From positions 1-32,585 of the IMG/VR virus record IMGVR_UViG_3300034037_000023: a stretch of DNA of 32,585 bases. One strand, 5' to 3'. This DNA comes from a virus. Positions 4,404-32,176 of this stretch are shown here, one piece after another; positions within the stretch are counted from its first letter, which is position 1; each line of letters starts with the position of its first letter. Under the pieces are notes generated by a model. That model searched no databases, was not told where the DNA came from, and worked only from the letters and a program-made list of their open reading frames with translations. The translations under genes were made by a program, and so were the position numbers.

Positions 4404-7400
4404 ATGGACAAAACCATAAGAATAAGAACAACACCAAATAGTTTTAAAAGTTCTAGTATTAGAGTAAATATTGAACAAGATTTTGATTTTATACAAATTT
4501 TATCTCTTAATATTTCTCAAAATGAGGCTTATAGAAGGTTTTGTTCAGATTATGGTGTTGTAGTTGGTAGGGTGATAATGAATGGTGGTGTTGGTGTTCC
4601 TAATGCAAAAGTTTCTATATTTGTAAAGGCATCTGAATATGATGATTTGGATGATGAAATAAAAGAACTTTATCCATATGAAACCCCTTTAGATAAGAAT
4701 GATGATGGAATCATATATAATTTGTTACCAAAAAATCAAAAATTTGAATGTCATACTCCAATAGGCTCATTCCCCGATAAAAGAGAGATTTTGGATGTTG
4801 ATAAATATTCTGATGTATATTGTAAATATTATAAATATACTTCCGTAACAAATGAAGCTGGTGATTTTATGATATTTGGTGTTCCTGTAGGGGAACATAA
4901 TATTGTTTTTAACGTTGACATATCAGATATTGGAATTTATTCTCAAAGACCTTATGATTTAATAAGGGAAGGTTCACCAAAAGAAATTTTTGAAGGTACA
5001 ACTCAATTTAAAAGCTCAAAAGAATTATTGACATTACCTCAATTCAAATCAAATATAACTTCTGTAAATGTAATTCCTTTTTGGGGTGATAAATCAAATT
5101 GTGAAATCGGTATAACAAGAATTGATTTCGATACAAAAATAAAAATACAACCAAGTGCTTTATTTATTGGTTCTGCAATAACAGATAGTCATAAAAATTC
5201 AGTAAATAAAAGGTGCAGACCAAGAAAAAAAACAGGTTATATATGTGATATGACCACTACACCTGGAAGTATAAATATTTTAAGAAAAACTGTTGATGGT
5301 GGTGTTGAAGAAATATCAATAGATGGTGGAAGGGTTATAAATGATGATGGTGTTTGGGCTTTCCAAGTTCCAATGAATTTGGATTATATGGTAACAAATG
5401 AATTTGGTGAATTAGTTCCAAGTGAATCGCCGAATAAGGGAATACCTACAAGGGCAAAGGTTAGATTTAAAGTTGGTTTGGATATGGATGGTGGTGATGG
5501 TAGATTAAGAACAAGAGCATCTTATTTAGTTCCACATAATCCTAATACCATAAATGATGTTGATTACAATTTTAATGAAGAAACAAAAGAAGAAAATTTT
5601 AGAGATTTATATTGGAATAAAATATATACTGTTAAAAATTTTATACCAAGATTTCAAGCCACATCAGGTCATAATAAAAGAACTTTTATTGGTATAAAAG
5701 ATGTTGATGATTGTGTAGGAACAGCAAATCCATTTCCGTTTAATAGGATAGATTCAAAATTAAACCCATTGTTTTTAATACTTTGTATTATAATACAGAT
5801 AATATCATTTATTATTGTCTTTTTAAATTCTGTTATCTTTAAAATAATAAACTCTGTTTTTAAAGTTATAAATGATATATTAAAAGTAATTTGTAAAGTA
5901 ATATGGTTCATTGGTAAACTTGCTTGTTCAATTAAAAGTGGTAGTAAAAAATGCAATTGTAAAAAAAAGGCTTGTATAGGAGATGCTAATTGTGATTGTG
6001 GTGGTAACAATTCATGTGATTGTGATTGTAATAAAGATTATATTGATTATATAGGGTGTATTATAGTAAAATGTAATGATGAAACTTATGGTCCAGGATG
6101 TGAAAAGAGTTCGGATAAAATATCCCCATACAGAAATACAGACGACAAACCACAACATTATCCTGATGATGGACATCCAGGACATGGTGCAAATGAAACG
6201 TCTCCCAAAAAAGACGCTGGATGGGCATTTTGTTTATCAATACAATTAGCAGAAATTTTAGATGTGTGGAAATTTGATTTTTATAATGATTGGGTAAATG
6301 GGGTATTATATTTTCCTTTATTCAAGTATAAGAAAAATAAAAAGGGTAAAGAAAAGTTTTGTGAAAATAATTGTAGTGATTATGGTGATGGTGTAGATGG
6401 TAATAATGATAACATAGGAGATAATAAATGTAGAAATAATTATTTAGTTGACACTTGTACATCAGATGGTGCGGATTCAAATTTAAGCGATTTAATAAGA
6501 GATGGACTAATAAATAAACATAACGATACTTTATATTATTCACCAATATCACATAATGATAATTATAAATTATTAGCTACTGATTTAGTTATATTAGGTA
6601 GTATGTATGATTGTGATTGGCAAAATATATTAAAAATACATGACAGATTAAATATAACATCATATAAAACACCTGATTTATTAGATGAATATGATGGCAA
6701 TAAAGTTATAGTTAGTGGTTATGATTCAGCAAGCAATGATATAGCAGATTCCTTGTTTTTTAATTTAACATGTACAGGTATTGAAACAAATGCAAGAACC
6801 TGTGAGAATATTAAAAGAATTTGTGAAATTGGTGTAGGTCTTGATGAAGATAGAACAGACGAACCACCAAAATTAGGGTGTAATGGAAGTATGGGCATAG
6901 ATAGAGTTATTGATAATTGTGATGTTGATGATTTATTGATTAGAGATTATTTTGCATTACTTAATGAACCAAATTCAGGCATTGATTTATTAAACTTTAC
7001 TGATAGCAATAAACATGCATTGTTTAATTCTGTTGCTTATGAATTATACAGAGGTGTTAAAATAGGTATTATAAATCAACCATCAAATTCATTTTATTTT
7101 TATTTCGGTTTAAGACCAGGAAAAAGTGCATTGGATTTAATGAAAGAAAAATATTTTAATGATTGTAAGAGTCAAAATAAAACCAATATAACTGTTAATG
7201 CAGATATAAATCATGCAACTTCATCAACTTCTTGTGATGGTTCAATTTCATTAGAAATTATATATAGTTCAGGTTCTTATGATATTTCATGGGAAGGACC
7301 TGGTGGGTTTACATCAACTTCACAAAATATATCAAATTTATGTGAAGGTACTTATGTTTTAAAAATAATTACAAGTGATGGTAAGGTATTTACATATTCT

Positions 7401-8411
7401 TATTATATAAATGGTGGGCTACCATTATATTGTTTTTTAACTCCAGTTAATATAAGCAAACATGGTTTAAATGATGGAAAAATAATTGTTACAGATATTA
7501 GTGGTGGTGATGGTGGACCATATACATTAGAATTAAAAGATTATAATAATGGTAACATAATAAATACTACTACAGTTTCAAATAGTAATTCTTATACATT
7601 CACTAATTTACCAGCAGGAAATTATGAAGTAAATATTTATGATGTTAATAATAATTCTGTAAAATGTTCTCCAGCATTAGTTACAATAATAGAACCTGAT
7701 GAATTGATTATTGATGTCCAAAAAACAGATATAACGTGTTATGGAGCTAATGATGGTGAAATTTATTTAGATTATACAAGTGGTAATCCACCTATAACTT
7801 GGTCTATAACTGGACCAAATGGTTTTTCAAGTTCAAATACAAATTTATATGATTTAGAAGGTGGAACATATACAATAACAGCAACAGATTCTTTAAATCA
7901 AACAGTAACTCAAACAGTAAACATATCAGAACCACAACAAATTTCTCCTACTATTACATTTACAGATGTAACCTGTTATGGTAATAATGATGGTACAATA
8001 ACAATAAGTAATATAACAGGAGGAGTTCCACCATATACAATTGTGTTTGATTTTGGTCAAACCGAAACATTTAATGGAAGTCCTGTAGTATTTGATAATT
8101 TGGAACCAGGTGAATATGAAATTACAATAACAGATGATAATGGATGTGAAATCTATGCTACAATACCAATAAATGAACCTGGTCCAATATCTCCAGGTGT
8201 TACTACTAGTAGTGGAGATATAACAATATCCCCAAGTGGTGGACAAGCACCGTATGTGGTAAAAATATATGACAGTAGTAATAATCAAGTATATAGTAAA
8301 AACATTTATTCTGGTGGTAGTGATACATATACACCAAATTCAATCGGAACTTATACTGTAGAAGTAACTGATAATAACGGCTGTTCAGAAACAGTAAGTA
8401 TAATTGTATAA
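4404..8411 (+). CDS. Large tail/adhesin protein with carboxypeptidase-regulatory-like and SprB-like modules
   Basis: The protein (1335 aa) is modular. Near residues 48-70 and 150-175 it has the two halves of a carboxypeptidase-regulatory-like β-sandwich (GVVVGRVIMNGGVGVPNAKV; TNEAGDFMIFGVPVGEHNIV). Around 452-510 lies a strongly hydrophobic, helix-like stretch, followed by a dense cysteine patch (about 515-545) with CNC, CDC and CDCDC motifs. From about 925 to the end there are roughly five SprB-like modules. Modules 3 and 4 are the clearest, opening with TCYGANDG (C1112) and TCYGNNDG (C1191), then GGxPPYT, GxYxITxTD and ending in EP. SprB repeats are known from flavobacterial surface adhesins. 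The gene sits in the structural block, so a tail fibre or baseplate role is inferred. There is no obvious signal peptide. It overlaps the next gene by one base. Confidence 0.75.
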   Translation: MDKTIRIRTTPNSFKSSSIRVNIEQDFDFIQILSLNISQNEAYRRFCSDYGVVVGRVIMNGGVGVPNAKVSIFVKASEYDDLDDEIKELYPYETPLDKNDDGIIYNLLPKNQKFECHTPIGSFPDKREILDVDKYSDVYCKYYKYTSVTNEAGDFMIFGVPVGEHNIVFNVDISDIGIYSQRPYDLIREGSPKEIFEGTTQFKSSKELLTLPQFKSNITSVNVIPFWGDKSNCEIGITRIDFDTKIKIQPSALFIGSAITDSHKNSVNKRCRPRKKTGYICDMTTTPGSINILRKTVDGGVEEISIDGGRVINDDGVWAFQVPMNLDYMVTNEFGELVPSESPNKGIPTRAKVRFKVGLDMDGGDGRLRTRASYLVPHNPNTINDVDYNFNEETKEENFRDLYWNKIYTVKNFIPRFQATSGHNKRTFIGIKDVDDCVGTANPFPFNRIDSKLNPLFLILCIIIQIISFIIVFLNSVIFKIINSVFKVINDILKVICKVIWFIGKLACSIKSGSKKCNCKKKACIGDANCDCGGNNSCDCDCNKDYIDYIGCIIVKCNDETYGPGCEKSSDKISPYRNTDDKPQHYPDDGHPGHGANETSPKKDAGWAFCLSIQLAEILDVWKFDFYNDWVNGVLYFPLFKYKKNKKGKEKFCENNCSDYGDGVDGNNDNIGDNKCRNNYLVDTCTSDGADSNLSDLIRDGLINKHNDTLYYSPISHNDNYKLLATDLVILGSMYDCDWQNILKIHDRLNITSYKTPDLLDEYDGNKVIVSGYDSASNDIADSLFFNLTCTGIETNARTCENIKRICEIGVGLDEDRTDEPPKLGCNGSMGIDRVIDNCDVDDLLIRDYFALLNEPNSGIDLLNFTDSNKHALFNSVAYELYRGVKIGIINQPSNSFYFYFGLRPGKSALDLMKEKYFNDCKSQNKTNITVNADINHATSSTSCDGSISLEIIYSSGSYDISWEGPGGFTSTSQNISNLCEGTYVLKIITSDGKVFTYSYYINGGLPLYCFLTPVNISKHGLNDGKIIVTDISGGDGGPYTLELKDYNNGNIINTTTVSNSNSYTFTNLPAGNYEVNIYDVNNNSVKCSPALVTIIEPDELIIDVQKTDITCYGANDGEIYLDYTSGNPPITWSITGPNGFSSSNTNLYDLEGGTYTITATDSLNQTVTQTVNISEPQQISPTITFTDVTCYGNNDGTITISNITGGVPPYTIVFDFGQTETFNGSPVVFDNLEPGEYEITITDDNGCEIYATIPINEPGPISPGVTTSSGDITISPSGGQAPYVVKIYDSSNNQVYSKNIYSGGSDTYTPNSIGTYTVEVTDNNGCSETVSIIV

Positions 8412-18800: not shown

Positions 18801-19027
18801 TGGCTGTATTTATAAAAAAAATAGAAAGTAAAATATTAGAAACAATAGATAGTGAACTTGATTATAGAGAATCGCTATCTGGAGATGTTGGTTATGGTAG
18901 ATATTTTAAAATAATGTCATTTGAAAAGAATGGGATTGAATTAAAAAATGCTATTAGTTTTTATGATTATAAATTAGTTAATAAAAACAATGGAATAAAA
19001 TACATTGAATATAAAATTGATTATTAA
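18800..19027 (+). CDS. Small hypothetical protein in the tail operon
   Basis: This 75-aa protein (MAVFIKKIESKILETIDSEL at the start) is unrecognised. It has no membrane segment and looks like a small mixed α/β protein. It is held between two large fibre-type genes by one-base TAATG overlaps at both ends, which supports it being a real, co-translated gene. It could be a small baseplate linker or a fibre assembly chaperone. Confidence 0.6.
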   Translation: MAVFIKKIESKILETIDSELDYRESLSGDVGYGRYFKIMSFEKNGIELKNAISFYDYKLVNKNNGIKYIEYKIDY

Positions 19028-20859
19028 TGAGATTTCAAGAAAAAATATATAATAAGACAGGAATCTTTAATAAAAATATAGAAATAAACACAGTTAATAC
19101 CAGTTCTGAAATTTGCTCATTTATTGAACCAATAATAACTTCTGACAAGTTATATAAAATTATAAAAGGATGGGATAGTGATGATATAAACAATTTATCA
19201 TTTAGCGGTATCGTAACTTCTTCCGAAACATCTGGAATTTTTTATGGTTTAAACGGTTGTTCAATCCCAGTTTCTGCCGTAACTAAAACAAAATATAATT
19301 ATGTGTTAGAAGATGATAATAATATTTTAAGTGGCACAATATCAACTCATACTTTTACAGGAACTCCATCTGAAAATACAATTAAATTATCATTAAGTCG
19401 TGGTTTTAAAACTTTGGGTTATAATTATTATTTTGATGGTAGTTTAATATATATTGAAAAACCAAATGGGGTTTCTTACATCTCCATAAATTTATTACCT
19501 GAAATAATTGATAATAGTAATAATTCTTGCATTTTAAGTGATAATAGTTGGTTAAACTATTCATTCAGTTCATTAACAGAAAATGATTCAAATGTTTTTA
19601 TTATAGACAATAAATCTGATACTATTACATTTGATTTACAATTTCCGTTAAGTCAATATCTTATTGATGATTCAAAATATAAATTTGAAATATATAAATA
19701 CAATAAAGATAGTAAACAATTTAATAAAATACCAATATATACATCAGAATATGTATTAGCATCAGAAATATATAAAACTGGTGTTTTAACTGTAGAATTA
19801 AGTGGTGAAGAATTAGATTTTGATGGTGATTATTTATTAAAATCTTATTATGATATACCACATTGTAATAAAATAATTTCATTAACTGGGGATAGGTTAA
19901 TTACTGATAAATATAAAAATGGAAAAGAATATGGTTTATATACTAAGGAAAGAGATTTATATTTTGTGGGTATTGTTGAACCATTAGAGCCATTATTTAA
20001 CAAAAATACAATTGATGAAGACGTTTCGACAGGCTCTCTTTATTCTACAACGAAAATAATGGAAGAGGGTGAAACATCAATTATAATAAATAATGAGATA
20101 AATGGTGATGTTTTGGTTTATTTAAATGGTTTGATGTTGTCTAAAGACAATGATTATACCTTCTCATCTAACACAATAACATTTAATGATACCATATATG
20201 AGGGAGATGTAGTTACTTTGGTATATGTGTCTAACCAATCATTAAATTCACCATATAGCGAAACCATTATAGCACCAAATCCAATATCCTCTGGACAAAC
20301 AAATATGGAAGGTGATAATAAAGTATATTATAATACAGACACGTCAAAATACGAAATATTTATTGAATATTATCCAATATCACCAAACGATATTATTGTA
20401 ACCTTAAACGGTGTTACATTATCAAATAATATTGATTATTATCAATCAATATCCAACCCTAAAAGGATTATATTAGAAGGTAATTTATTACCTAATGATG
20501 TAATAAATGTAATATATGTACAAGCACCAGAATATGTAGGAGAAGTATATACAAATACCCCGACAATATCATGGTATGTTTCAAGACCTATAGATACAGA
20601 TAGCGGTGAATTTGTTGTGGAAGTATCTAATGACATTTCATTTAATAATATTTTATATACAGATTCAATACCATATGTTAAAGGTAAAAGTGGATATAAT
20701 ACCAAATTATTGGTAAGTGGTTCAATTGGTGATATTTTATATTATAGAGTTGTAAATAAAAAAATACATGAAACAGTTAATGGAGATAAGATAATTAGAA
20801 CTAAAAATAGTGATACAGTTAAAATAACAATAATGTCAAATGCAATAAATTCATATTAA
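19027..20859 (+). CDS. Tail fibre-like protein with two LNG repeats and an FnIII-like end
   Basis: The 610-aa protein has two related modules, at about residues 342-403 and 431-501. Each has a strand leading to VYLNGLML or VTLNGVTL, then NDYT or IDYY, then a strand and a GDVVTLVYV or NDVINVIYV ending. This pattern (LNG, DY, GD.v.v.Y) is common in phage tail fibres. Residues about 511-605 look like a fibronectin-III-type domain, with PTISWYVSRP and VEVSNDISF. No signal peptide or catalytic motif is seen. It is the last gene before a 106-base gap, after which a new fibre gene begins. I infer a fibre or fibre-connector role. Confidence 0.7.
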   Translation: MRFQEKIYNKTGIFNKNIEINTVNTSSEICSFIEPIITSDKLYKIIKGWDSDDINNLSFSGIVTSSETSGIFYGLNGCSIPVSAVTKTKYNYVLEDDNNILSGTISTHTFTGTPSENTIKLSLSRGFKTLGYNYYFDGSLIYIEKPNGVSYISINLLPEIIDNSNNSCILSDNSWLNYSFSSLTENDSNVFIIDNKSDTITFDLQFPLSQYLIDDSKYKFEIYKYNKDSKQFNKIPIYTSEYVLASEIYKTGVLTVELSGEELDFDGDYLLKSYYDIPHCNKIISLTGDRLITDKYKNGKEYGLYTKERDLYFVGIVEPLEPLFNKNTIDEDVSTGSLYSTTKIMEEGETSIIINNEINGDVLVYLNGLMLSKDNDYTFSSNTITFNDTIYEGDVVTLVYVSNQSLNSPYSETIIAPNPISSGQTNMEGDNKVYYNTDTSKYEIFIEYYPISPNDIIVTLNGVTLSNNIDYYQSISNPKRIILEGNLLPNDVINVIYVQAPEYVGEVYTNTPTISWYVSRPIDTDSGEFVVEVSNDISFNNILYTDSIPYVKGKSGYNTKLLVSGSIGDILYYRVVNKKIHETVNGDKIIRTKNSDTVKITIMSNAINSY

Positions 20860-23087: not shown

Positions 23088-24278
23088 ATGGGATTTATAA
23101 CAGAACCACCTAAAACAATTGTTACAAGACTTACCTCATATGGTAGAGATTTTTTGTTAAGTAATACAATTAATGATATTAAAAAATTTGCAGTATCTGA
23201 TGAAGGAATTGATTATTCATCAGATTTAGTATTACCTAATGGGTATGTCCCATCAATATCTGGAAAATTAGATTTTGTTGGTAATATAAGCAATAATTCA
23301 GCTTATGATTATAAGATACCCAAAAGTATTTTAAAATATAAAGATGATAAATATTATCAAGAATTAAATGAAGAAGATATAAAAATATCTCAAACAAACA
23401 AAAAAATACCTACACAAACATTATCAAATTCAGATTTTTCTTTTTTATCAATTGACAGAACAAATACTTCAAACCAATATATTGGTATTTTACAATATTT
23501 AAATTTTCCATTGACAGATAATCAAAAAAGTTATTATATATTAGATTATAAACGTGGTGGTTATTATAATACAGCATTAGAATTTTTGAATGTTGATAAT
23601 GTTATTGTAATATCTATAGATGATAGTAAGTTTGGAAATATTATATCGGGTAGTGAAATTAAATTAGAATTATTTGGAAATTTAAATACGTATACATTAT
23701 ATGGGACACTTCAAAACAACCTTACCAGACGTAAATTATTAGACAATAAATTATATGACGATTCTAACAATGTTGTTAATGCTTTAGGTGAATATAAAAT
23801 TTTATTATTTTCAGATGAAATTCAACCACCAAACAATGATCCTACAAAATCATGGGGAGATGGATATGGCAAAATATATCCATACTCAAAACATGGTAAA
23901 CCATTATATAATTATATAGATGTTCCAAATTCAGGAATTGTTAGAGATAAACCTGTAGGATATGTGGATTTATTAAGCGGTTTGGTTGTTATAACAGACC
24001 AGACAATTGTTAGCGATTTAAATTTATCAAGTACATCTCATAATGGAGTATTAACATCTTATGAATCTGCTGTTGAATGCATTATACCGATAAGAATAGA
24101 ACAAAATTCTTTTAATACCTCATTAAATCCAACATATAATGAAAATGAATATACTTATATAACTTCAATATATTTGTTGGATGAAAAAGATAATGTAATT
24201 GCAGTTGGGAGAGTTAGTGAACCAATTAAAAAAACAAAACTTGACTTTATTTATTTTACTATAAAACTGGTTCTATGA
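23088..24278 (+). CDS. Tail fibre-like protein, paralogue of the preceding gene
   Basis: The 396-aa protein is a shorter relative of its upstream neighbour. The N-terminus has TRLTSYGRDFLLSN and KKFAVSDEGIDYS, matching the T.LT..GR / aiGDs.I.Y start. The C-terminus has ITSIYLLDEKDNVIAVGRVS, matching the other's EIGIYDDEQNLVLLGKTS region. The middle is unrelated or strongly diverged. In the start motif the GDS of the longer protein reads SDE here. It overlaps the next gene by four bases (ATGA). It is probably a second short fibre or a partner in the same fibre complex. Confidence 0.65.
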   Translation: MGFITEPPKTIVTRLTSYGRDFLLSNTINDIKKFAVSDEGIDYSSDLVLPNGYVPSISGKLDFVGNISNNSAYDYKIPKSILKYKDDKYYQELNEEDIKISQTNKKIPTQTLSNSDFSFLSIDRTNTSNQYIGILQYLNFPLTDNQKSYYILDYKRGGYYNTALEFLNVDNVIVISIDDSKFGNIISGSEIKLELFGNLNTYTLYGTLQNNLTRRKLLDNKLYDDSNNVVNALGEYKILLFSDEIQPPNNDPTKSWGDGYGKIYPYSKHGKPLYNYIDVPNSGIVRDKPVGYVDLLSGLVVITDQTIVSDLNLSSTSHNGVLTSYESAVECIIPIRIEQNSFNTSLNPTYNENEYTYITSIYLLDEKDNVIAVGRVSEPIKKTKLDFIYFTIKLVL

Positions 24279-25324
24279 TTAGAATTTTTATAATTCAATT
24301 ATTATTATTTATATCCATTTATGGTTTTTCTCAAAATGTGGTATGTTCAAGTCCAACAATATATATTAAGAATAAAGGCATAGATTTTAACAATTCATTA
24401 GCATCTCAAGGTAACAACCTGTCATCATCAGACAATGATTATAATTGTATAGTATTAAATAAAAAGGAAAAGATAGATGGTTATTTTGTTGGATTTAATT
24501 TTTCAATCCCAAATAATGCAATCATAACAAACATAGATATATTAATAGAAGGTTATTGGTTATTAAATAATGGTTGTAAAAAATCAGAAATACGATTATA
24601 TAATAATGGTATTAATGGAATAAAAGAAAGTGGTTGTTCAATAATTGGAAATAATGGTATTGATGATACTACAATTTATACTGATAATTCACTTTCATTG
24701 ACACCTTCTGATGTAAATGATTCAAATTTTGGTTTAAAAGTTAAATTTGAATCAAATTTAAATAATAATGTATTATGTATAGATTATATTGAAATATGTA
24801 TTACATATGACTTTCCATTACCAACAAAAATATTGGAAAAAGAAATTTATGATAATGGCGATTATTTAACATTATATTTTTCAACATCAGATGAAAGTTC
24901 AATAGAAAAATATTACATATATAAATTTATAAATGGTTTAGTTAATTATGGGACAATAACGCCAAAAAAACGAACATTAAATAAATATTATTTTAATGAT
25001 TATAATATAAAAAACGGTTTAAATTATTATGTTTTATATGAAAAAGATGTTAATGGTGATATTAATAAATTAACAACATTTAAATTTAATAAAAAAGATA
25101 ATGATGATGTTATTTTTAATATAAAAAAAAAGAACTCATTTGTTGAAATTACAACCAATAATGATGTTAATTACATTCTTTATGTTTATGATATTAGCGG
25201 TAAATTAATTATAAAATCAAATATAAACATAGATAAATTTACATTTAAACTTAATGTTGGTTTGTATATATTCACATTTATATATGATAATAAAATAATC
25301 ACATTTAAAGAAGTTATTTATTAA
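24275..25324 (+). CDS. Exported protein with type IX secretion (T9SS) C-terminal sorting domain
   Basis: The 349-aa protein begins with a good signal peptide: a basic start (MIR), a hydrophobic core, and a probable cut after GFS before Q20. Residues about 35-180 form a β-rich domain with LTPSDVNDSNFGLKVKFES and IDYIEICITY. The last 70-80 residues match a T9SS type-A sorting domain in pattern: VEITTNNDVNYILYVYD, ISGKLI, then GLYIFTF and a final strand ending EVIY. In Bacteroidota such tails direct proteins across the outer membrane through the PorV/SprA machinery. The start overlaps the upstream fibre gene by four bases, so it belongs to the phage structural operon. It may be displayed on the infected cell, perhaps to block receptors, or form part of the virion. 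The sorting tail was judged by eye. Confidence 0.8.
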   Translation: MIRIFIIQLLLFISIYGFSQNVVCSSPTIYIKNKGIDFNNSLASQGNNLSSSDNDYNCIVLNKKEKIDGYFVGFNFSIPNNAIITNIDILIEGYWLLNNGCKKSEIRLYNNGINGIKESGCSIIGNNGIDDTTIYTDNSLSLTPSDVNDSNFGLKVKFESNLNNNVLCIDYIEICITYDFPLPTKILEKEIYDNGDYLTLYFSTSDESSIEKYYIYKFINGLVNYGTITPKKRTLNKYYFNDYNIKNGLNYYVLYEKDVNGDINKLTTFKFNKKDNDDVIFNIKKKNSFVEITTNNDVNYILYVYDISGKLIIKSNINIDKFTFKLNVGLYIFTFIYDNKIITFKEVIY

Positions 25325-25328
25325 AGAA

Positions 25329-25964
25329 ATGGATAAAAAAAAGTATATAATGGGACTTGATGTTTCAACCAGCACAATTGGTGTTGCAGTTTTTGAAAAT
25401 CTTGGAAATGAAGGAAAACTAATATTATTAAAACATGTTAAATTAATTGTAAAACCTAAACCAGAAAATAAACTTGAAGAATTATTTAGAAAAGTAGAAA
25501 TTTTTGAAAATCAATTTTTAGTTAAATTCGTTGATCTTGATTTTGAAAAAATAATAATAGAAGAACCATTATTAAGATCAAACAATATAAATACCGTTGG
25601 CTTATTATTAAGATTTAATTCATTAATATCAAAATCGTGTTATGATTATACTGGAGTAATACCAGATTTTATATCATCATACGATTCAAGAAAATATGCA
25701 TTTCCTGAACTAATGGGGAAAAGAATATATGATTCAAATGGTAATAAGAAAAAAAATATTGATAAAATAAAACCTACCTTATTTGGTGCATATGATAAAA
25801 ATGTTGATAAGAAAAAAATAATTTGGGAGAAAGTTAATGAAAAGGAAAATGATATTCAATGGATTTATAACAAAAAAGGTGAATTAAAAAAGGAAAACTT
25901 TGATATGAGTGATGCATATACTTGTTGTCTGGGGTATATGAAAAAAAACGGTTTCTGGAATTAA
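25329..25964 (+). CDS. RuvC-like Holliday junction resolvase (RNase H fold)
   Basis: The 211-aa protein has the acidic residues expected of RuvC-type resolvases: D11 in GLDVSTSTIG, E78/E79 in IIIEEP, and D192/D195 in FDMSDAYTCC near the C-terminus. Phage enzymes of this kind cut branched DNA during recombination and before packaging. The start codon is 4 bases after the T9SS-type gene, so it is at the end of the same transcript. The IS element begins just after its stop codon. An insert-like region between the second and third motifs (about residues 120-185, with many lysines) is longer than in bacterial RuvC, which is 173 aa in E. coli. Confidence 0.85.
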   Translation: MDKKKYIMGLDVSTSTIGVAVFENLGNEGKLILLKHVKLIVKPKPENKLEELFRKVEIFENQFLVKFVDLDFEKIIIEEPLLRSNNINTVGLLLRFNSLISKSCYDYTGVIPDFISSYDSRKYAFPELMGKRIYDSNGNKKKNIDKIKPTLFGAYDKNVDKKKIIWEKVNEKENDIQWIYNKKGELKKENFDMSDAYTCCLGYMKKNGFWN

Positions 25965-25970
25965 AAAAAA

Positions 25971-26100
25971 TGTGAACTACCCACCCACGCCAGAGGCGAT
26001 GGGTTGGGCTTCAGGAGTCAACACTCCCACCAACGTGGGCAGTTCGTCCTGATTTTTCCTATCCGTTCCAGATAAGATATTTTTTAAGGCAAAAGATTTT
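25971..26100 (-). ncRNA. Probable ωRNA (reRNA) at the tnpB 3' end
   Basis: In TnpB systems the guide RNA comes from the 3' end of tnpB and the element's right end. Here that stretch holds the right-end hairpin (25980-26008) plus two short perfect stems, GGAGT/ACTCC (26014-26027) and CCCAC/GTGGG (26026-26039), both with CAAC loops. The two share bases and cannot form together. The guide would be the flanking minus-strand sequence just beyond 25971, which starts with a run of T and then AATTCC. The 5' boundary is a guess. Confidence 0.5.
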
Positions 26101-27149
26101 ATGTTACAAGCAGCTAAAATATCTCTATCGTGTGTAGTTCCACAAGACTTACAAGTCCACTCTCTGTCGGATAGTTTTAAGTCCTTGTTGATTACTCCGC
26201 AGGAGCAAGTCTTTGATGATGGTGCAAATCGCCCTATTCGTAGGATATTTTTACCATACCATTCAGCCTTGTATTCTAACATAGAGACAAAAGTTGACCA
26301 ACTTGCATCACTAATAGATTGTGCTAAATTGTGGTTTTTAACAATATTCTTTACAGCTAGAGTTTCAAGTGCTATCGTTTGGTTCTCACGAATTAGTTTA
26401 GTTGAAACTTTGTGTAAAAAATCTTTGCGCTTGTTTACTACATCTTCGTGTAGTTTGGCAAGTTTCTTTTTAGTACGCTTACCTTTGTGTTTTGAATATT
26501 TACGTTGTACATATTTTAATTTACTTTGTGCTTTACGTAGGTATTTTGGATTTTCAAAAACTTCACCTTTTGATGTAATTGCAAAGTCTTTAATTCCTAA
26601 GTCGATACCAATAGTCGTACTTTCGGTTATTGATGCTTTAGTTGGTATTTCTTCTTTAGTATCACAAAGAATAGAAACAAAGTATTTACCTGTTGGTGTT
26701 CTTGATATAGTTGCTGATTTAATTACACCTTTGGTTTCTCTATGTAATACAATATCAATTCCCTCTTTAAATTTAGGAATGATTAACTTCCCATTCTCTA
26801 CAATTACATTTTGTGGGATATGGAATGATTGTTTACCGCTTCTTTTAGATTTATATTTAGGAAAGTTCCCTTGTCCTTTGTAAAATCTTGTGAAAGCATT
26901 ATCCAAATTTCTTATTGGTGCTTGTAATGATTGAGAATTAATTTCTTTTAACCAAGTACATTCTTTCTTTAAATCTGGCAATTGTTTGATTAGGTCAAAA
27001 CAAGATAGGTTTATTTGATTACCAGCGTAAGCCATTGTTTTGGTCTCCAACGCAAGGTTATACACAAACCTTGAACTACCAATATGCTTATTGATTAGTT
27101 CGGCTTGTGCCTTCGTAGGTGAAATTCTATATTTAAATGACTTCAACAT
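25977..27149 (-). CDS. tnpB: TnpB, RNA-guided endonuclease of IS605 family (OrfB)
   Basis: The 390-aa protein has the full TnpB layout. The N-terminal part opens with FKYRISPTKAQAELINKHIG, typical of the OrfB helix-turn-helix region. The RuvC nuclease residues are D183 (GIDLGIKDFA), E262 (IALETLAVKNIV) and D341/D343 (THDRDILAACNI). A zinc ribbon lies between the last two, with C315, C317, C333 and C336. Length agrees with known TnpBs (about 400 aa). TnpB cuts the empty donor site guided by ωRNA and so helps keep the element in place after TnpA excises it. All motifs are intact, so it may be active. It is divergent from tnpA, and its last codons overlap the presumed ωRNA. Confidence 0.95.
   Translation of the reverse strand: MLKSFKYRISPTKAQAELINKHIGSSRFVYNLALETKTMAYAGNQINLSCFDLIKQLPDLKKECTWLKEINSQSLQAPIRNLDNAFTRFYKGQGNFPKYKSKRSGKQSFHIPQNVIVENGKLIIPKFKEGIDIVLHRETKGVIKSATISRTPTGKYFVSILCDTKEEIPTKASITESTTIGIDLGIKDFAITSKGEVFENPKYLRKAQSKLKYVQRKYSKHKGKRTKKKLAKLHEDVVNKRKDFLHKVSTKLIRENQTIALETLAVKNIVKNHNLAQSISDASWSTFVSMLEYKAEWYGKNILRIGRFAPSSKTCSCGVINKDLKLSDREWTCKSCGTTHDRDILAACNIKSFALKNILSGTDRKNQDELPTLVGVLTPEAQPIASGVGG
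25980..26008. repeat. Right-end hairpin of the IS element
   Basis: CCCACCCACGCC (25980-25991) pairs with GGCG-A-TGGG-T-TGGG (25995-26008), leaving single-base bulges at 25999 and 26004 and an AGA loop. This gives 12 base pairs in a GC-rich stem within AT-rich DNA. It is the imperfect counterpart of the left-end hairpin and should be the structure bound by TnpA at the right end. Confidence 0.85.
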
Positions 27150-27229
27150 ATATTATTAAATACGTACAAATATACAAAAAGTTGCTTTCATTTTAAAGTT
27201 TTTTTATTTTTTCTGTAAAATGCCGTTCA

Positions 27230-27278
27230 ACATATTGTAAAAGTTTCCGTCTTCGGGTAAAAAACTTCCACAATATGT
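27230..27278 (+). promoter_or_regulatory. Long inverted repeat that buries the tnpA start codon
   Basis: ACATATTGT (27230-27238) pairs with ACAATATGT (27270-27278), and inside it AAGTTT (27241-27246) pairs with AAACTT (27262-27267), separated by a 2x2 internal loop. A small CCG/CGG stem can form in the apical part. The tnpA ATG (27275-27277) lies in the outer stem. Translation would be blocked unless the stem opens, as is known for IS200 tnpA, whose mRNA leader hides the ribosome site. Confidence 0.7.
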
Positions 27279-27676
27279 CTCACTACATCAGTACAAATCG
27301 TTCAAAACATTACTTAAAATGTCATTTAATCTTAGTAACCAAGTATCGTAGAAATATCTTAGTCGGTCAGTTAAATGATGATTTAAAAGATATATTCAGT
27401 TCCATAGCTGATAATTCAGATTTTGAAATTGAAGTTATGGAAAGCGACATTAATCACGTACATTTCTTAATTAGGTATATACCACGTATATCTGTTTCTC
27501 AATTAGTCCGTAGGTTAAAACAAGAATCTACTCGTCAGTTATGGCTGTTACATCATACTACATTACGTCAATATTATTGGTATCAGCGTCTCTTATGGAG
27601 TGATGGTTATTTTGTCTGTTCAATAGGTGAAGCATCACCAGAAACAATACGTCAGTATATCTTATCACAAGGTTAG
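27275..27676 (+). CDS. tnpA: TnpA, Y1 HUH transposase of IS200/IS605 family
   Basis: The 133-aa protein is of normal length for the family. It has the HUH metal-binding motif H61-V-H63 (HVHFLI) and the catalytic tyrosine Y128 in SPETIRQYILSQG near the C-terminus. CHLILVTKYRRNIL near residue 16-29 is the usual N-terminal strand and basic stretch, and RRLKQESTRQLW is the helix following the HUH core. It cuts and joins single-stranded DNA at the hairpin ends, moving the element without target duplication. It is divergent from tnpB, with 125 bases between the two start codons. Its start codon lies inside a stem, so expression is probably kept low. Confidence 0.95.
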   Translation: MSHYISTNRSKHYLKCHLILVTKYRRNILVGQLNDDLKDIFSSIADNSDFEIEVMESDINHVHFLIRYIPRISVSQLVRRLKQESTRQLWLLHHTTLRQYYWYQRLLWSDGYFVCSIGEASPETIRQYILSQG

Positions 27677-30321: not shown

Positions 30322-31272
30322 ATGTATATGTTGAACACAATAACAAAATTTTTATTTAAAACTTTTGGAAAAAAAATATCTGGTGAAGAATATTCATTTG
30401 AAAAAATGTGCCATACTTGTTATGGTGATGGTTTTATTCGCATAGTTGATGGTGAAAGAATCAGGTGTTTGGATTGTAATGGAAAAGGTTTTAATTATAA
30501 ATTCATAACAAAAATAAATAATTATAAATTATTTGGAAAAGTTTTGGAAATAAAAGAAACATATAAGAAAAAATATGGAAATAATATTGGAGATAAAGAT
30601 ATTAATAGAGATATAACTTTATGGTTGGATGATAAAATAAATCCAAGAAGATATTATAAAAAAGCAAAATTTTTTACTAATACAGTAGTTTGGGTTAATT
30701 CATATACTCAATTTGTCGATCATATAAAAACCAATGGAATCCCTGAATACGTTTCATTTGATTATGATTTATCAAATAATAATATTGATAATAAAAACGG
30801 TTACGATTGTGCTGTATGGTTAATTAAATATTGTATAAAAAATAATATTGAAATACCTGAATGGGATGTTCATTGTGAAGAAGAACATTATAAAAATCAC
30901 ATTAAAAATTTATTTAAAAATTATGGTATTGTGTTGATAGAAGAAAAATTAAAAAACTATTTTTATACCCAAATTAGTGATGGTGTAATAAGATTAGATA
31001 GAAAAGATGTTTCTTTTGAATATCATTTTCACAAAAATAAACTACAATCATTTGAATATAATATTTCAGACTTTAATATTGGAGAGGTAGTTAAATCATT
31101 TAAATCGGATTATCCAGATGAAATAATTATAAGTGGTTTGCAAACATTTTTAATAAGAATGGATTTAAACAAAGATGAAGATATAATTGATTCTTGTAAT
31201 AGATTTTCAAAATTATTAATTAACTTATCAAAGTTAAAAGAGAATGGAGAAAAAAGTAACACTATGGCTTGA
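30322..31272 (+). CDS. cREC-domain protein with N-terminal zinc-ribbon-like CxxC motifs
   Basis: The 316-aa protein has three parts. Residues 30-55 carry CHTCYGDG and CLDCNGKG (C30, C33, C49, C52), like a DnaJ-type zinc module. Residues about 97-200 match the cyclic-phosphate-processing receiver (cREC) pattern: ITLWLDD (D103, D104), YVSFDYDLS (D147, D149), a GYDCA helix and WDVH (H184). Compared with the intact copy in the next gene, the FDHDLG motif reads FDYDLS and the HSANSVG segment reads HCEEEHY, so its chemistry may differ. The C-terminal 115 residues are unrecognised. cREC domains are predicted to act in RNA-end metabolism. The gene overlaps its paralogue by 29 bases. Confidence 0.7.
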   Translation: MYMLNTITKFLFKTFGKKISGEEYSFEKMCHTCYGDGFIRIVDGERIRCLDCNGKGFNYKFITKINNYKLFGKVLEIKETYKKKYGNNIGDKDINRDITLWLDDKINPRRYYKKAKFFTNTVVWVNSYTQFVDHIKTNGIPEYVSFDYDLSNNNIDNKNGYDCAVWLIKYCIKNNIEIPEWDVHCEEEHYKNHIKNLFKNYGIVLIEEKLKNYFYTQISDGVIRLDRKDVSFEYHFHKNKLQSFEYNISDFNIGEVVKSFKSDYPDEIIISGLQTFLIRMDLNKDEDIIDSCNRFSKLLINLSKLKENGEKSNTMA

Positions 31273-31648: not shown

Positions 31649-32176
31649 ATGAAACAAGCATTAATAAACTATTCAAAAAACGAAATTTCTGATGAAGTAT
31701 ATACACCAGATTATGCTATATTTCCATTACTAAAGTATATTCCTAAACATGCAAAAATTTGGTGTCCATTTGATACTGAAGATTCAAACTATGTCAAGCT
31801 GTTAAAAGAAAACGGAAATGATGTTATACATACACATATAAACTATAAACAAGACTTCTTTGAATATCAACCAAATGATTTCGATATAATAATAAGCAAC
31901 CCTCCGTATTCTATTAAAGACAAGATTCTTGAAAGGTGTTACGAACTTGGCAAACCATTCGCACTGCTACTTCCGATTACAACTCTTGAAGGGATAAAGA
32001 GAAACAAACTGTATAGAAAGTATGGTTTACAGCTTATTGTTTTAGACAGAAGAATTGAGTTTTATGACGTGACACCAGGTAAGGAAACAAAAACAGGATG
32101 CTGGTTTAATACAAGTTATTTCTGTTGGAAACTGTTACCAAAAGATATAATATTTGAGAGTATAAATAAACAATAA
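31649..32176 (+). CDS. NPPY-motif methyltransferase-like protein
   Basis: The 175-aa protein carries IIISNPPYS (N84-Y87), the catalytic motif IV of amino-methyltransferases acting on adenine or similar bases, preceded by a DFFEYQPNDFD strand. Motif I, the SAM-binding glycine-rich loop, is not seen in standard form. In its place is KIWCPFDTEDSNYVKLL. This short form with DEVYTPDYA, CPFD and SNPPYS is often found in phages and is usually annotated as a DNA adenine methyltransferase. It may protect DNA from restriction. The gene uses more AAC, CTT and CTG codons than the structural genes. It is followed by the structured element at 32187-32246. Confidence 0.7.
   Translation: MKQALINYSKNEISDEVYTPDYAIFPLLKYIPKHAKIWCPFDTEDSNYVKLLKENGNDVIHTHINYKQDFFEYQPNDFDIIISNPPYSIKDKILERCYELGKPFALLLPITTLEGIKRNKLYRKYGLQLIVLDRRIEFYDVTPGKETKTGCWFNTSYFCWKLLPKDIIFESINKQ

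Follow-up and report, generated by a model that had tools for sequence, protein, structure and literature searches.

The DNA analyzed here, referred to as the window, is a stretch of 32,585 nt that spans positions 1 to 32,585 of the IMG/VR record IMGVR_UViG_3300034037_000023. A baseplate wedge protein gene, a match to a tail-fibre PHROG and long tail-module genes all lie in one direction in this window, from which we conclude that it belongs to a phage. Downstream of these genes, and directly in front of a ruvC-like resolvase gene, is a gene that we named P0001. Its product combines a predicted N-terminal Sec signal peptide with a predicted C-terminal sorting domain of the type IX secretion system (T9SS), an export machine that is specific to Bacteroidota. 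The positions of these features are given in Table 1.

Table 1. Positions of P0001, its predicted domains and the flanking genes in the window.
Feature	Position	Strand	Remarks
Tail-module gene, 703 aa	20966..23077	+	48-50% identity with counterparts in five other contigs
Upstream tail-module gene, 396 aa	23088..24278	+	In relatives conserved immediately 5' of ruvC
ATGA stop/start overlap of P0001 with the upstream tail-module gene	24275..24278	+	
P0001 ORF, 349 aa	24275..25324	+	ATG start; predicted phage-encoded T9SS type A cargo
Predicted Sec signal peptide, residues 1-19	24275..24331	+	From the sequence and a rule-based scanner
Jelly-roll/beta-sandwich passenger domain, residues ~47-178	24413..24808	+	Family also known from tail proteins of phages and from giant adhesin-like proteins of Bacteroidota
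FN3-like module, residues 182-264	24818..25066	+	Detected by HMM; precedes the sorting domain
Predicted T9SS type A sorting domain, residues 280-349	25112..25321	+	
RuvC-like resolvase gene	25329..25964	+	3' boundary of the insertion

The preliminary description of this DNA had coupled P0001 to a tail fibre gene by an ATGA overlap. The stop codon of the 396-aa gene does overlap the ATG of P0001, but a family search gave no match of its own for this upstream gene, which can be read as a tail fibre gene only from its conserved place behind the tail genes; the only tail-fibre PHROG match in the window is located at 19027-20859. At the other end, 4 nt separate the stop codon of P0001 from the start of the ruvC-like gene. 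The P0001 reading frame is intact over positions 24275-25324, and its GC fractions at the three codon positions (0.26/0.24/0.09) are within the range of those of the adjacent phage genes. In addition, a 64-kb IMG/VR contig covers the window and is 100% identical to it in every stretch compared, including P0001 itself.

Several other genes were identified in the window. A glycosyltransferase gene (PF13712; 222-1766) is present at its start, just upstream of the baseplate genes, and positions 4404-8411 encode a tail-region protein of 1,335 aa containing two SprB repeats (PF13573, E 3e-16), which are modules known in gliding adhesins of Bacteroidota. A cREC_REC-domain protein is encoded at 30322-31272 and an Eco57I-like methylase fragment at 31649-32176. 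A tRNA scan of the contig stretches examined did not detect any tRNA. Directly behind ruvC, at 25977-27676, is an IS200/IS605 element with TnpB on the minus strand and TnpA on the plus strand. The third-position GC of its genes is 0.24-0.26, versus 0.09 for P0001, and the best matches of its TnpB are Bacteroidota proteins, with 78% identity to a protein of a Bacteroidota MAG in a scan of genome contigs. Because of this GC value, which is unlike that of the phage, and the similarity of TnpB to the MAG protein, the element is probably a recent arrival. It probably also hints at the host, an indirect indication since IS605-type elements are mobile.

The N-terminus of P0001 consists of MIRIFIIQLLLFISIYGFS followed by QNVV, and the predicted cleavage between the two exposes Gln20. 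This corresponds to the Q-rule of Bacteroidota, according to which signal peptide cleavage leaves a Gln as the first residue (PMC5837995). Signal peptides were called with our own simple heuristic. When the related phage loci were scanned for ORFs of 80 aa or longer, 858 distinct ones in all, this crude rule-based scanner assigned a Q-rule signal peptide, as found in T9SS type A cargo, to P0001 alone.

At the other end of the protein, in the region that includes YVYDISGKLI and GLYIFTF, the curated NCBIfam model TIGR04183 (Por_Secre_tail) matches residues 287-346 with 24 bits (E 2.7e-5), the curated cut-off being 23 bits. A Pfam-A search of P0001 gave no match. Because the TIGR04183 score is marginal, a separate, independent HMM was built from 29 bacterial sorting domains. 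It gave P0001 a score of 13.9 bits; when the last 99 residues were shuffled 5,000 times, the highest score was 10.4. The YPNP motif in the N-terminal part of the sorting domain is missing, and the TIGR04183 match begins at model position 8. This motif is present in almost all of the 29 bacterial domains and is common rather than defining; the phage protein P0003, described below, also lacks it and yet scores above the TIGR04183 cut-off, and no sequence motif is strictly required in T9SS sorting domains (PMC11285876). The near-invariant C-terminal Lys, whose role has been described (PMC10994853), is present as K345, which is invariant in alignment A6, and the conserved loop Gly is present as G309. 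Judged by the TIGR04183 score barely over the cut-off, the low score in the independent model and the lack of YPNP, the predicted sorting domain of P0001 is divergent.

We also predicted the structure of P0001. The AlphaFold2 model contains seven strands within residues 281-348, with a mean pLDDT of 76-86 per ten-residue block. In a Foldseek search, the predicted sorting domain aligned with 8gl8_D with a TM-score of 0.74, at 2.2 A and 28% identity; 8gl8_D is the sorting domain of RemZ, solved inside the T9SS translocon of F. johnsoniae (PMC10994853). Unlike P0001, RemZ and RemA (PDB 8gl8) are homologues of bacterial gliding adhesins and are far larger. The top Foldseek ranks for the whole P0001 model were generic FN3/Ig chains with an rmsd of ~20 A; these were disregarded, the local match to 8gl8_D being the informative one. 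P0001 therefore has the C-terminal properties of T9SS type A cargo: a match to the curated model at the extreme C-terminus, a predicted seven-stranded beta-sandwich and the near-invariant Lys. The signal peptide and the type A sorting domain proposed in the preliminary description, as well as its view of P0001 as a phage gene for T9SS type A cargo that is coupled to a tail operon in a phage of the kind infecting Bacteroidota, are supported by these results, and both the TIGR04183 search and the structure prediction that it had suggested came out in its favour.

The first weak match of the jelly-roll domain between the two terminal signals was a podovirus tail tubular protein, and relatives with 26-34% identity are encoded in seven IMG/VR contigs. 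Most of the phage tail homologues have no signal peptide. A profile of this family gave matches in three out of 247 Bacteroidota genomes, two of them adhesin-like frames of 1,750 and 3,682 codons and one an apparent prophage tail gene. The protein of 3,682 aa begins with a signal peptide, and its tail is of the T9SS type B (TIGR04131, 36.9 bits; cut-off 35). The presence of the jelly roll in tail proteins and in this T9SS protein suggests that it serves as a passenger domain in tails as well as in T9SS adhesins of hosts. The FN3-like module, for which the HMM score is 20.4 bits (maximum of 5,000 shuffles, 9.5), is shared with five further phage T9SS proteins, where it likewise lies ahead of the sorting domain. 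The model of the middle domain has a pLDDT of 65, which is of moderate confidence, and its similarities to the furin P-domain, CBM4, CBM6, CBM11 and TNF-like lectin folds are weak (TM below about 0.5); for this reason we assign no ligand to the jelly roll. Searches against Pfam-A, NCBIfam and PHROG did not reveal a recognizable catalytic domain in P0001, and no sequence match was found in the PDB.

We then analyzed the tail gene/ruvC junction in 62 other related contigs, which were gathered through the RuvC neighbour. A tail-module ORF is located directly before ruvC in 49 of them, a GIY-YIG endonuclease gene lies in between in eight, and the synteny is absent in five. The GIY-YIG genes occur in L025, L038, L045, L052, L055-L057 and L072; two of them were tested and both matched Pfam PF01541. 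A T9SS gene was not found at this site in any of the 62 contigs seen. Likewise, in the five contigs reached via the 703-aa tail gene, the tail-module gene adjoins ruvC directly and no T9SS gene is present there. Since P0001 is absent and a GIY-YIG gene is sometimes present, the junction is an insertion hot-spot, and P0001 is an accessory insertion and not a needed part of the virion. Homologues of P0001 were also sought more widely. With tblastn, 50,697 phage records yielded a single weak match (E 0.7), a scan of IMG/VR returned only the 64-kb contig containing the window, and phmmer against all related loci found P0001 itself only, so that a single sequence variant is known.

Phage-encoded T9SS cargo is already known, although little studied. 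For Cryophage, three genes that encode type A sorting domains were reported in 2020, together with the proposal that they hijack the host T9SS and serve superinfection exclusion (Bellas et al. 2020; PMC7468147), and T9SS sorting domains had been noted in crAss-like phages in 2019 (de Jonge et al. 2019; PMC6949934). In view of these reports, the statement in the preliminary description that this is not a described phage strategy was wrong, while its reading of the sequence was right. Like the Cryophage genes, P0001 is present in a phage genome among phage genes, occupies a variable accessory locus, has a predicted type A sorting domain and would depend on the host T9SS. The Cryophage (76 kb) cargo, as described, consists of an endoglucanase, a GH39 protein and a PA14 protein (PMC7468147), whereas P0001 belongs to a phage with a T4-like baseplate of a jumbo-type clade and carries a non-enzymatic jelly roll. 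The crAss-like proteins, also from phages of Bacteroidetes, have sorting domains beside adhesion-like domains, but these are BACON repeats near head genes and the passenger is unrelated (PMC6949934). Phages of Porphyromonas gingivalis encode Q-rule secreted proteins, whose signal peptides conform to the Bacteroidota rule like that of P0001; unlike for P0001, no T9SS sorting domain was reported for them (PMC10367356).

Our searches indicated further phage proteins that are predicted T9SS cargo. Two other contigs of the same clade encode proteins that score above the TIGR04183 cut-off (P0002 and P0003), and the same holds for Flavobacterium phage immuto, an isolate, and for four large uncultured phages (462-642 kb). 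P0003, encoded on a 345-kb phage contig (L185, 3001-4206), is a predicted polysaccharide lyase (PF14099, E 3e-19) that also carries a signal peptide and a sorting domain of the T9SS. It is therefore a candidate for a phage enzyme that the host exports. The immuto protein is gp15 (L168, 1006-1734; MW353176.1, QQO91933.1), which matches TIGR04183 with 45 bits; its annotation is limited to cohesin domain-containing, so its predicted character as T9SS cargo had gone unrecognized. Gp15 shares with P0001 the Q-rule signal peptide, the TIGR04183 sorting domain and a comparable location, 1 nt behind a gene that itself follows a lectin-type gene. It differs in its cohesin-type passenger, which has no detectable sequence similarity to that of P0001, and in coming from an isolated phage with a known host. 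According to our scanner, seven out of the nine other phage T9SS proteins have a Q-rule signal peptide, and an eighth, in L165, has an arguable site between FFG and Q. In the BFVD database, some proteins of uncultured Caudovirales already carry the name "Secretion system C-terminal sorting domain".

Taken together, we consider P0001 likely, with a probability of about 0.6, to be an accessory gene of the phage whose T9SS-exported product most probably binds glycans and alters the infected cell's surface. Judged from established T9SS biology, export by the host T9SS is highly probable. P0001 would be made alongside the late tail genes through translational coupling. It would then cross the inner membrane through Sec, and cleavage by signal peptidase I would expose Gln20. 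The folded C-terminal domain would dock on SprA/PorV of the host T9SS (PMC10994853), and the passenger would be moved outside the cell; in it, the jelly roll weakly resembles carbohydrate-binding domains and the FN3-like module would serve as its stalk. There, P0001 would be attached to surface LPS or released into the medium, as is known for type A cargo (PMC10994853). The passenger would then most likely bind the surface glycans of the infected cell itself and thereby change the cell surface; for example, re-adsorption of progeny or rival phages may be blocked. That receptor masking, or another surface change such as altered adhesion, is the purpose of P0001 is plausible and is put forward tentatively.

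The exported protein might instead be displayed or released for another purpose, such as the loosening or binding of extracellular polysaccharide for the spread of progeny, host-cell clumping or nutrient capture, a possibility that is plausible and that we put forward just as tentatively. The predicted lyase P0003 and the Cryophage endoglucanase and GH39 protein (PMC7468147) point in this direction; with such glycan-directed enzymes among the cargo of other phages, a role in surface polysaccharide is plausible and purposes may differ from phage to phage. The release of type A cargo into the medium (PMC10994853) would also fit, but P0001 lacks a recognizable catalytic domain, and the data do not distinguish a released from an attached P0001. 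We consider it unlikely that a tail-type receptor- or glycan-binding domain was moved onto the host T9SS, with the displayed lectin occupying the very glycans that the tail recognizes; given its position in the tail operon, such a protein would be expressed late, and the coat would be in place before progeny release.

Readings in which P0001 is not functional T9SS cargo have less in their favour. Its place in the tail operon with a stop/start overlap, and the occurrence of the middle-domain family in phage tail proteins, would suit a virion tail protein; the resemblance of its start to a signal peptide and of its end to a sorting domain would then be incidental or serve assembly only. However, such a protein would be a conserved part of the tail module, and none of the relatives that share this module has P0001; moreover, a Q-rule signal peptide and a sorting domain occur together in P0001 as in other phage T9SS proteins, and most tail homologues of its middle domain lack a signal peptide, which makes this explanation improbable. 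If P0001 were a former T9SS gene in decay, with a sorting domain that has lost its function, the low model scores and the missing YPNP would be explained, but this is slightly less probable still in view of the intact frame with its coding-like composition, the retention of the predicted fold, Gly309 and Lys345, and the same lack of YPNP in the phage lyase P0003. Finally, the lack of a P0001 homologue in any related phage contig might suggest an assembly chimera or a very recent host gene. The exact fit between the tail gene and ruvC, including the overlap, argues against this, and we rejected it as extremely improbable on the basis of the identical copy in the 64-kb contig and the phage-like third-position GC, which is well below that of the adjacent IS605 element.

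P0001 as an accessory gene for exported cargo has implications beyond this phage. If phages use the T9SS of their hosts, the appearance of infected cells could change, whether to one another, to grazers or to other phages. That phages use it in this way is an idea that came earlier from one metagenomic phage and from crAss-like phages, and predicted cargo genes now recur in several lineages of large phages, with passengers that differ and include one predicted polysaccharide lyase. One of these phages, the Flavobacterium phage immuto, has been isolated and its host, strain LMO8, is known, which opens the question to bench work.
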